Shown here piece after piece: positions 12,404-15,248 of a stretch of DNA of 33,222 nt (positions within the stretch are counted from its first letter, which is position 1; each line of letters begins with the position of its first letter). The stretch is taken from contig JAFLUP010000003.1 in assembly GCA_022508745.1 (NCBI GenBank), positions 1 through 33,222 on the forward strand, written 5' to 3'. A program made the position numbers and the translations under genes. The notes below the pieces were generated by a model that worked only from the letters and a program-made list of their open reading frames with translations, ran no database searches and was not told where the DNA came from. Source of the stretch: Oscillospiraceae bacterium. GTDB lineage: Bacteria; Bacillota; Clostridia; Oscillospirales; CAG-382.

Positions 12404-12432
12404 CGTTGTAACGAACGCAGTGCGTTACAACG
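12404..12432. repeat. Perfect 10-bp inverted repeat after the SleC-like gene
   Basis: CGTTGTAACG (12404-12413) and CGTTACAACG (12423-12432) are perfect inverted copies around a nine-base loop. On the minus strand it lies five bases past the SleC-like stop but is followed by ATATGC, not T, so it is no classical terminator. It may protect the mRNA 3' end or be a dispersed palindromic repeat. Confidence 0.6.
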
Positions 12433-12437
12433 GGAAT

Positions 12438-14267
12438 TTAGTTGCCGTTCGCCGCAGAAATGCGCTCGTACTCCCGGGTGAGGGATTCCCATGTGAGCGG
12501 GCCGACGATGCCGTCCGCTTCCAACCCGTAGTTCTGTTGGAAACGGCGGACGTTCTGCTCGGTGCGTTCCCCGAAGATCCCGTCCACCGCCAGCGTAGGC
12601 AGGGAAAGATCCACGGTGGAAACGGTGTTGAGCATGGTTTGCACCCAAGAAACATCCTCCCCGGTGGAACCGCGGCGCAGGGGCGTTCCGGGATACGGAC
12701 GGGAGGGGACCACTTCCCCGCCGCCCAGCGCGTAGTAGCTGGTGACGATGGCGTTCCACGTTGCCTCGTTGACCGTTCCGGTCTGCACCAGCCCGTAGTA
12801 GTTCTGGAAAGCGCGTACCGCGTCACGCGTCACGTTTCCGAACACGCCGTCCACCGTCGGCGGGGTGTACATCCCCGGCATGGCGGACGCGATATAGGAC
12901 AGGTAGCTTTGCACCCGCAGAACTTCGCTTCCCCGGTCTCCCACCTGCAAGGTGCGCCCGTTGAAGGCGTCCGATTGGGGGAATTCTCCCTCGCTCCCCA
13001 GCTCCGCCAGCTTTTTGACCGCGGTATAGATGTATTGGATGCGGTACCAAGTCTCCCGGTTGACCGTTCCGGTTTCCTCCAGACGAAACAGCCGTTGGAA
13101 GGCGCGGACCGCCGTAGCGGTAGTCTCCCCGTAGGTGCCGTCTGCCGGCAGGATGAAGGGGATCGCCGGGAAGGAGATGGCGATGCGATTGAGCCGGTTT
13201 TGCAGGGTCGTCACCTCTGTGGACGCGTCCCCGGATTGTAGCGGTCCGGGGAAGGAGTCCGGCACAACCTCCGCTGTCTCCGCCTCGCGGATCTCCACCT
13301 CTGTGCCGTAATAGTATTGCAGGATCTGCAGCGGCGTGTAGTCCCTTCTGGCGAGGGCGACGGTCCCCCATTGGCTCATCCCGTCACAGGTGGTGTTGGC
13401 CCCGTCGCAGTATTCCGCGAACAGCGGCTCCAGCTGCCGCCCGCGGGCGATGTAGTTGGTGAAGTAGCCATCCACGATGGTGTCGATGATGTCGAAAATG
13501 CCCCGCTCGTGGACGTAGTATTGGTCGTACGCCGTGTTGTTGGTGATATCGAAGTCGTATCCTTGAGACGGATACCACTCGGTATACAAACGGTTGAGCG
13601 CCAGAGAGACCTGCGCGATGACGTTGGAAATGATGGAAGTTTCCGGCCATGTGGGGTAAATCTCACTGCACGCCACGTTTTTGATGTAATCCAGAAAGGG
13701 AACGGTCACGTTCTGCGCGTTTGCCCCCGGCGGACCGAGATGCACACGGATCGTCTCCGGCACGACTACCCGTCGAGGCGTTTCCGCGATCGCGGCGGCG
13801 GGAACCGACCGCATGGTACGCATGGTGCTGACCAGCTCCGGTCCCTGTTGGTTCTGCACCCGGGGCGCGTCCCCTCCGCTGTAAAGGTGATGTTCCGGGA
13901 TGACGATCACCCGCTCCAACTGCGTAGGCGTTCCGTTTGCCGACGGGCGATCCAGCGTGCCCATCATCACCGTCTGCCGGGTGGTCTGCCCCGGGAAGAT
14001 CTGCTCCCCGACGATGCTCACCGTCACATATCCTGCGATCACGATGCGCAGGTCCACGGTGGAATACGGACGTTCCCGAGGATTGGGGGTCATACCGGCG
14101 GACATGGGCGGCGTCTGGACGGAAAACGTCACCGCCCCGTCCGTGTCGCTGATACCGGTGCTGCTCCCGCGCCCGCCCCCCGTCAGGATCACGGCCGCAC
14201 CCTGCAGCACGCCGCCCCCCTCCGCTTCCCGAACGGTGACGACTAATGTTCCTCTGCTCTCTGCCAA
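12438..14267 (-). CDS. sleC: SleC-like spore cortex-lytic enzyme (SpoIID-type lytic transglycosylase with three peptidoglycan-binding repeats)
   Basis: A 609-residue protein. Residues about 1-105 are a beta-rich N-terminal domain (pro-region in SleC), 106-190 a linker, and 190-320 a SpoIID-type transglycosylase domain: FLDYIKNVACSEIYPTWPE with the presumed catalytic Glu202, then CDGANTTCDGMSQWG (287-301) and LQILQYYYG. Three peptidoglycan-binding type 1 repeats lie at about 345-410, 440-505 and 528-595, each with a VDG-x-F/Y-G and T-W pattern. SleC of clostridia cleaves spore cortex during germination after activation by Csp proteases; csp genes are not in this window. No signal peptide, in line with spore-located enzymes. 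The start appears to be TTG with AAAGGAG 10 bases upstream, an arrangement copied in the upstream paralogue. Confidence 0.85.
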   Translation of the reverse strand: MAESRGTLVVTVREAEGGGVLQGAAVILTGGGRGSSTGISDTDGAVTFSVQTPPMSAGMTPNPRERPYSTVDLRIVIAGYVTVSIVGEQIFPGQTTRQTVMMGTLDRPSANGTPTQLERVIVIPEHHLYSGGDAPRVQNQQGPELVSTMRTMRSVPAAAIAETPRRVVVPETIRVHLGPPGANAQNVTVPFLDYIKNVACSEIYPTWPETSIISNVIAQVSLALNRLYTEWYPSQGYDFDITNNTAYDQYYVHERGIFDIIDTIVDGYFTNYIARGRQLEPLFAEYCDGANTTCDGMSQWGTVALARRDYTPLQILQYYYGTEVEIREAETAEVVPDSFPGPLQSGDASTEVTTLQNRLNRIAISFPAIPFILPADGTYGETTATAVRAFQRLFRLEETGTVNRETWYRIQYIYTAVKKLAELGSEGEFPQSDAFNGRTLQVGDRGSEVLRVQSYLSYIASAMPGMYTPPTVDGVFGNVTRDAVRAFQNYYGLVQTGTVNEATWNAIVTSYYALGGGEVVPSRPYPGTPLRRGSTGEDVSWVQTMLNTVSTVDLSLPTLAVDGIFGERTEQNVRRFQQNYGLEADGIVGPLTWESLTREYERISAANGN

Positions 14268-14324
14268 ATCGGATCTGCTCCTTTACTCCAGTATTTCCGA
14301 ATCCCTGCGATCGGGAGGATTTTT

Positions 14325-15155
14325 CTATTCGTTTTCATTCCATCCGCAGGGGGATCCTCCCCCGTTTTCCGAAAGCCATTCGTCCACAAGCCTGCAAATG
14401 CGGTCGAACAGACCCCGATCATGGACGTATTGCAGGTCATATGCGGGGGAATCGGTGATATCAAACGCATACCCCTGCGACGGATACTGGTTGGTGCGCA
14501 GGCGATCCAATACAAGGGCGGCCAGCTTTTCGATGTTGTTCCGCAGGGACTGTTCCGGCCAGGTGGGGTACAGCTGGCTGCTGGCGACATTCTTCATGTA
14601 CTCCGAAAACGGAACCTTCACGGTCGGAGCCTCCGCGTCCGGCGGACCCTCATGCACGCGGATGGCGGACGGCAGGGGCGCTCTCTTCATGGCGGGCAGC
14701 GCTTCCGGGGAATTTGACGACGCGGGCTCCGGCTCCGAAAGGTTCTCCACCCGCGGCTCGTCGCTGCCGGTGTAAAGATGATGCTGCGGAATGACAATCA
14801 CCCGTTCCAACTGCATGGGCGTACCATCCTCGCTCGGGCGGTCCAGGGTGCCCATCATCACCGTCTGCCGGGTGGTTTCACTGGAAAAAACCTGCTCCCC
14901 GACGATGCTCACCGTCACATATCCCGCCAGAACGATGCGGAGATCCACCGCCGTGTACGGGCGCTCCCGGGGTTTCGGGGTGTAGCTGTTCGCCACGGAG
15001 GGCGTCGGGATGGAAAAGCTCACGACTCCGTTCGTATCGCTGACGCCGGTGCAGCTTCCACGCTCGCAGGACATGCTCACGGTCGCACCCTGCAACACCC
15101 GGCCGCAATCCGCATTTCGGATGGTGACCACCAAAATTCCTCTGCTTTCTGCCAA
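14325..15155 (-). CDS. Truncated SleC-like paralogue with Gln in place of the catalytic Glu
   Basis: A 276-residue paralogue of the next gene. The N-terminal domain (1-107) is highly similar (VDLRIV-x-AGYVTVSIVGEQ, QTVMMGTLDRPS), and the transglycosylase domain starts with FSEYMKNVASSQLYPTWPE. Gln194 (codon at 14574-14576) stands where the active copy has Glu202, the residue equivalent to the catalytic Glu of SpoIID. The frame stops after a shortened domain, ending GWNENE, so the MSQWG motif and all three peptidoglycan-binding repeats are absent. The N-terminal domain carries three cysteines lacking in the longer copy. TTG start with AAAGGAG as in the paralogue. It is promoter-proximal and 57 bases upstream of the active gene. 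It may be a pseudoenzyme regulator or a decaying copy; the well-kept frame favours a functional protein. Confidence 0.8.
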   Translation of the reverse strand: MAESRGILVVTIRNADCGRVLQGATVSMSCERGSCTGVSDTNGVVSFSIPTPSVANSYTPKPRERPYTAVDLRIVLAGYVTVSIVGEQVFSSETTRQTVMMGTLDRPSEDGTPMQLERVIVIPQHHLYTGSDEPRVENLSEPEPASSNSPEALPAMKRAPLPSAIRVHEGPPDAEAPTVKVPFSEYMKNVASSQLYPTWPEQSLRNNIEKLAALVLDRLRTNQYPSQGYAFDITDSPAYDLQYVHDRGLFDRICRLVDEWLSENGGGSPCGWNENE

Positions 15156-15219
15156 ATCGGTTCTGCTCCTTTGCCACGAAGTTGGATTCTGCGGAATTCC
15201 TTCCGACAGTCTCTGCTTC

Positions 15220-15248
15220 TACTATATGCAAAGCGGGTTTTCCTTGTG
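15220..15248 (-). promoter_or_regulatory. Sigma-K/E-like sporulation promoter of the SleC-like pair
   Basis: On the minus strand CATATAGTA (15220-15228) matches the mother-cell -10 CATANNNTA, and CACA (15245-15248) supplies the sigma-K-type -35 AC after 17 bases. It lies about 65 bases before the first TTG start and just past the upstream operon's terminator. No sigma-A promoter of comparable quality is visible in this gap. Confidence 0.55.

Follow-up and report, generated by a model that had tools for sequence, protein, structure and literature searches.

A truncated and probably non-catalytic SleC paralogue encoded ahead of sleC in an Oscillospiraceae bacterium

Spores of Clostridioides difficile and Clostridium perfringens open their cortex chiefly by means of the enzyme SleC. 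In a stretch of 33,222 nucleotides from an Oscillospiraceae bacterium that is likely spore-forming (contig JAFLUP010000003.1 of assembly GCA_022508745.1, positions 1 to 33,222; hereafter the window), the gene of a full-length SleC, P0001, is preceded by that of a shorter SleC-like protein, P0002, and the question raised by this locus is what the short copy is for. The original prediction, made from the letters of the sequence, described it as a dedicated dead copy. The sequence comparisons reported here support the view that P0002 is a pseudoenzyme, meaning a conserved paralogue whose active site appears disabled while purifying selection acts elsewhere in the protein. As to its role, we tentatively favour, at somewhat less than an even chance, that of a conserved non-catalytic paralogue likely acting in trans as a non-cutting partner of the adjacent SleC.

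The two SleC-family proteins of the locus

Both open reading frames (ORFs) are intact and lie on the minus strand, the short one first and separated from sleC by a 57-base-pair (bp) gap (14268-14324). The order and the 276-codon frame are thus as originally described. The features on which the argument depends are:

14325..15155, minus strand: ORF of the short SleC-like protein P0002, a supported pseudoenzyme, 276 residues, TTG start (member of a clade of 17)
12438..14267, minus strand: full-length SleC P0001, 609 residues, TTG start (homology to SleC, Pfam matches)
14841..15146, minus strand: transthyretin-like N-terminal (SleC "pre") domain of P0002, residues 4-105
14367..14672, minus strand: N-terminal half of the SpoIID/SleC catalytic domain of P0002, residues 162-263
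14574..14576, minus strand: Gln194 of P0002, at the SpoIID/SleC catalytic Glu site (alignments)
13662..13664, minus strand: catalytic Glu202 of P0001 (profile-profile alignment)
13365..13379, minus strand: MSQWG motif of P0001 (S[QE]WG in 0/17 short and 76/92 long proteins)
12468..13265, minus strand: three peptidoglycan-binding repeats of P0001, outer limits approximate (PF01471, three stretches)

P0001 has what is expected of a SleC: a pre-domain, a SpoIID-type domain carrying the catalytic Glu and MSQWG, and peptidoglycan-binding domain homology, with residues 6-423 matching the pre-pro-form of SleC in PDB 9h68 (E-value 1e-75). Its score against PF08486 (SpoIID/LytB), 15.2 bits, stays under the cut-off of 23, which several SleCs of relatives exceed. 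P0002 also matches 9h68 (E-value 1.3e-32, residues 6-258); its SpoIID-type domain is incomplete, and neither a peptidoglycan-binding repeat nor the catalytic Glu is present. No Pfam family matched it, PF08486 and the peptidoglycan-binding repeat included. Among the 17 short proteins described below, PF08486 gave weak matches in nine (best E-value 0.0032) and PF01471 none. The features originally assigned to the downstream copy and denied to the upstream one were therefore correctly read. No SpoIID entry appeared beside 9h68 among the best 50 Foldseek and VIA-align matches, and a first AF2 (AlphaFold2) model was set aside for its pLDDT (predicted local distance difference test) of 53.4.

The SpoIID catalytic Glu, which we take to be E101 of the C. 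difficile protein, was aligned with P0001 Glu202 at 96.6% probability in a profile-profile alignment, and Gln194 of P0002 falls in the same column. The SpoIID profile was built from 14 SpoIID-domain proteins of relatives, 14 of 31 loci having passed a motif rule. The E101A variant of C. difficile SpoIID is described as inactive (PMC6221140). The prediction had thus chosen the right residue, and Gln does occupy the catalytic site. It put the emphasis in the wrong place, however, in holding that Gln abolishes catalysis, since Gln is found in only 4 of the 17 short proteins, whereas truncation and loss of the Glu of the TEW motif are common to all 17. What would make P0002 dead is above all the absence of the SpoIID domain's second half, and not the Gln. 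No frameshifted remnant of this missing half was found by tblastn, the 57 bp between the genes holding no further SleC piece.

The genome of the window (G000) encodes a second SpoIID-domain protein (contig C57; L002, 1366..2247) with TAKCYPEE at the Glu site, which by eye may carry Lys there. It is a possible second dead SpoIID relative.

The clade of short SleC-like proteins

A search with P0002 as query, whose length filter admitted proteins of about 152-483 residues only, returned 33 proteins, of which 17 including P0002 are 257-280 residues long and 60-100% identical. They comprise P0002 and P0004-P0019 (P0003, being P0002 itself, was dropped; the annotation of P0013, P0014 and P0017 begins only at residue 9), so that the short form occurs in 16 further proteins from public sequence assemblies. 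A profile search added no new member among the 120 matches listed, scores dropping from 488 to 367 bits, and the matches below the drop were, as far as read, SleC pieces or other lineages. Twelve of the 102 newly listed proteins were read as candidates and rejected (P0155, P0160, P0165, P0169, P0174, P0180, P0186, P0192, P0198, P0226, P0228 and P0245): each is of another lineage or looks cut or frameshifted, and by eye all lack the cysteine set described below. In the tree, the 17 short proteins are united with a support of 100/98. Their neighbours are the P0001-type SleCs of the genus, which themselves group together at 92/60 only.

The short proteins end at nearly the same point, 4-22 residues past one common Asp in 17/17. 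This rules out a random fragment, which was the outcome that would have spoken against a dedicated copy. Given its recurrence in 16 other proteins, the short copy is likely a retained, non-cutting partner of SleC and not debris.

The long proteins used for comparison (alignment A3) number 92: P0001, P0020-P0035 and 75 of 119 newly listed. All of them have Glu at the catalytic position, as do 29/29 loci from genomes of relatives; in the short clade this position is occupied by Glu in 12, Gln in 4 and Gly in 1. By parsimony the catalytic Glu changed at least three times within the clade, and maybe four, the grouping of P0009 with P0010 being weak (84/51). The Glu of the TEW motif (position 222 of P0002) is present in 91/92 long and 0/17 short proteins. 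The hallmarks of the clade are accordingly truncation, loss of the TEW Glu and new cysteines, and not the Gln. Of 24 columns of the catalytic half in which at least 90 of the 92 long proteins share one residue, 13 are kept in 17/17 short proteins and 11 are not. The kept positions beside the catalytic site include Tyr196, Pro197, Trp199 and Pro200 (17/17), and the stretch P-x-x-[IV]-R-VH-x-G-x-P is equally preserved in all 17; positions 207, 216, 217, 221 and 222, in the helix past the catalytic site, are unconserved. This pattern suggests that the fold was kept in the short clade while the active site was let go.

The new cysteines are located in the N-terminal domain:

15105..15107, minus strand: Cys17, in 17/17 short and 0/92 long proteins (38/92 gapped there)
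15066..15068, minus strand: Cys30, in 14/17 short proteins, the other three having Cys at residue 32, and in 1/92 long
15051..15053, minus strand: Cys35, in 17/17 short and 0/92 long proteins (17/92 gapped there)

In a structure model, Cys17 belongs to the loop that joins strands 1 and 2, Cys30 closes strand 2 and Cys35 is part of strand 3. These residues may form a disulfide, a metal site or a cross-link. Cysteines in the N-terminal domain as such, one to five and anywhere within it, occur also in 17/92 long proteins.

Selection, transcription, linkage and processing

The short proteins evolve faster than SleC, and the distribution of changes is reversed between the two. In the short clade the divergence of the catalytic half is 1.44 times that of the N-terminal domain (median, 135/136 pairs), the corresponding ratio being 0.39 for eight SleCs of the genus (27/28 pairs). 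For species whose short protein and SleC are both identified, or probably so, identity between the short proteins P0002 and P0016 amounts to 73.2% (N-terminal domain) and 64.6% (catalytic half); for P0016 and P0017 the values are 91.6% and 88.5%. The corresponding SleCs give 82.8% and 94.8% (P0001 and P0037) and 93.0% and 96.9% (P0037 and P0039). The window pair, 60% identical in protein, was also compared by the NG86 (Nei-Gojobori) method for nonsynonymous (dN) and synonymous (dS) divergence, with dS near saturation: dN and dS were 0.181 and 0.749 in the N-terminal domain and 0.373 and 1.106 in the catalytic half, a dN/dS of about 0.24-0.34, and for P0001 and the SleC of another genome (G023) 0.212 and 0.834 and then 0.066 and 1.486. 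These figures indicate that constraint, in SleC strongest on the catalytic half, has shifted onto the transthyretin-like N-terminal domain in the short clade. Together with the clade of 17, its near-single truncation point and its newly fixed residues, such signs of purifying selection support the idea of a dedicated dead copy.

The two copies share identical DNA stretches, 33 and 29 bp long (13957..14033 and 14848..14924), which are a weak hint of gene conversion. At residues 81-100, 15 of 16 synonymous codons are identical, which is marginal over 13 windows, and conversion is not claimed.

The elements relevant to expression are:

15220..15247, minus strand: sigmaK-like promoter AC-N17-CATATAGTA of the P0002 gene (pattern match, only copy in the window)
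15166..15172, minus strand: AAAGGAG ribosome-binding site of the P0002 gene (sequence; similar site in eight relatives)
14278..14284, minus strand: AAAGGAG ribosome-binding site of sleC, inside the 57-bp gap (sequence)

The promoter was matched to what we take to be the sigmaK consensus. On both strands of the window, AC-N16-18-CATANNNTA has one site (0.55 expected from 40 simulated sequences) and AC-N17-CATATAGT likewise one, at 15247..15220 ahead of the short gene, where simulated sequences predict 0.025. No such site lies within 250 bp upstream of the P0001 gene. The same element precedes sleC in 8/8 relatives read from the P0001-type sub-clade, and in 0/9 further relatives, in which the start of the match was taken as gene start and four have a CATA-type -10 only and one a looser, more distant site. 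In C. difficile, a sigmaK promoter drives sleC (PMC3789822). Because the element stands before sleC in all eight relatives and is missing before P0001, the short gene very likely stands between sleC and its old promoter; and since the only sigmaK-like promoter of the window precedes the short gene, the two genes are probably co-transcribed. The ribosome-binding site and TTG start common to both copies, to which the prediction had drawn attention, are indeed there. They reveal no special link between the copies, because this stretch is common in the genus (in the sub-clade, SleC starts with TTG in 7/8 and ATG in 1/8 relatives, each after a similar ribosome-binding site). A few bases past the sleC stop there is an inverted repeat (12404..12432) with perfect 10-base arms (CGTTGTAACG / CGTTACAACG) and no T run after it.

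In the reference genomes compared, relatives do not retain the Gln copy beside sleC: the short copy was found in 1/24 genomes of the genus and 1/63 of the family, in both cases the genome of the window, many of these genomes being incomplete. A candidate second copy in G001 (contig C93) was rejected, since this N-terminal piece is nearer P0001 (75% identical) than P0002 (58%) and is most likely a SleC split over two contigs. Among the public assemblies, the longest contigs are of equal length for the short P0016 and the SleC P0037 (20,245 bases) and for P0017 and P0039 (8,159 bases); each pair apparently shares one contig. A third size match, P0008 with P0142 (2,926 bases both), was attributed to chance, P0142 having just 49% identity with P0001.

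In C. difficile, the pre-peptide of SleC is removed by YabG (PMC6464247). No YabG (PF05582) was detected in the window's genome, which is 93% complete, and none scored above cut-off in the 24 genus genomes, one weak match with three stops being seen in G002. The subtilase domains of the window's genome are confined to two ORFs, 1836 and 2061 residues long (G000:C50:3635 and G000:C26:15810), and ORFs of similar size exist in many genus genomes. Subtilase frames of 370-665 residues are present in some other genus members; of the 12 genus genomes whose SleC frames measure 776-936 residues, five have subtilase frames of 570-665 residues (G002, G009, G012, G021 and G022), as against 0/9 with P0001-type SleC, patterns that may reflect two modes of controlling SleC. 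The window's genome also encodes a GerA receptor protein. In another family of the order, G061 has a SleC-like open frame of just 334 residues (C1, 164975-165703).

Possible roles of the short protein and known systems

In the role that we tentatively favour, the mother cell would express both genes jointly at a late stage of sporulation, beginning with the short one. The N-terminal domain of P0002 would bind the target of the N-terminal domain of SleC, be it SleC itself or its docking place in the spore, and P0002, fixed there by its three cysteines as a disulfide or metal site, would keep SleC where it is and prevent its action until the spore germinates. Such a subunit would replace in trans part of the role of the cleavable pre-/pro-peptide of C. 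difficile SleC. A stricter version, in which the truncated SleC is a detached pro-domain acting in trans whose three-cysteine switch locks SleC and releases it at germination, instead of YabG/Csp cleavage, seems unlikely. Several points weigh against a partner role. None of the eight relatives of the P0001-type sub-clade was found to have a short copy, SleC being present in all eight, so this type of SleC can do without one. Linkage outside the window's genome is indicated by equal contig sizes, in 2 of 16 cases, and the sigmaK sites were matched by a consensus pattern and not by a trained model. The absence of S[QE]WG proves little by itself, because 16/92 long proteins also lack the motif. 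SleC retains its own N-terminal domain, which would make a pro-domain supplied in trans superfluous, and the cysteines may equally cross-link the protein into the coat, independently of SleC.

This last possibility leads to an explanation outside SleC function, in which P0002 is a transthyretin-like, cysteine-cross-linked protein of spore coat or cortex that inherited the promoter and place of sleC. The constraint on the N-terminal domain and the new cysteines would fit it, as would the sigmaK-like promoter, coat genes of C. difficile being in the sigmaK regulon (PMC3789822). We consider it doubtful all the same: the 13 residues of the catalytic half invariant in 17/17 are more than a free transthyretin-like domain seems to need, and the short gene is beside SleC here and apparently on the same contig in two other cases. 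That dead half-domain could instead occupy cortex glycan and shield it from SleC, as a competitive inhibitor on the substrate side. Retention of Tyr196, Pro197, Trp199 and Pro200 agrees with this, but the lack of any detected peptidoglycan-binding repeat, the unconserved helix residues 207, 216, 217, 221 and 222 and the absent second half-domain make it very unlikely.

Less probable still is that P0002 is a functionless tandem duplicate in decay. It is truncated, faster-evolving than SleC and found in 1/24 genus genomes; yet 17 open frames with a near-single end point and fixed new cysteines, and the dN/dS of the window pair, are hardly those of a decaying gene. A role as decoy or sink for the SleC-activating protease, the decoy being among the roles originally proposed, is credited with as little. 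The stretch P-x-x-[IV]-R-VH-x-G-x-P, near which Csp presumably cuts C. perfringens SleC, is kept throughout the clade. This idea is weakened because neither YabG nor a subtilase of Csp size was found in the window's genome, although at 93% completeness a protease gene could have been missed. The least probable explanation of all is that P0002 still cuts, alone or paired with another half-domain: catalytic Glu is kept in 12/17, but half of the SpoIID domain and Glu222 are missing in 17/17, the catalytic Glu changed repeatedly by parsimony, and E101A of SpoIID is inactive (PMC6221140).

The locus presents a case of possible SleC control where the known processing proteases were not found. To our knowledge, little is established of the role of the SleC pre-domain. 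Here this domain appears freed on a half-dead copy, kept, supplied with cysteines and placed ahead of sleC, which suggests that it has a task of its own. When compared with the SleC of C. difficile (PDB 9h68) and C. perfringens, P0002 lacks the second catalytic half, MSQWG and the peptidoglycan-binding repeats, has its catalytic Glu replaced and has gained three cysteines. No dead SleC paralogue was met among the listed results of searches in open-licence papers. In Group II C. botulinum, SleC2a/SleC2b likewise represent a second SleC-family gene beside SleC (PMC5083711); they are longer, with about 698-792 residues and 4-5 peptidoglycan-binding domains, and the text consulted does not describe them as truncated or dead. 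The C. difficile pseudoproteases CspC and CspA (PMC12880746, PMC6636752) are also dead paralogues of a germination enzyme, serving as regulators in the same pathway. Being subtilase relatives, unlike the SleC-derived P0002, they are compared with it for their role. The working analogy for P0002 is YpeB, a separate protein thought to keep Bacillus SleB inactive until germination (PMC13393411). The enzyme is SleB and not SleC, and the analogy is meant as a functional one; by it, P0002 might have a YpeB-like holding role, for which the support is the linkage and the common upstream promoter.
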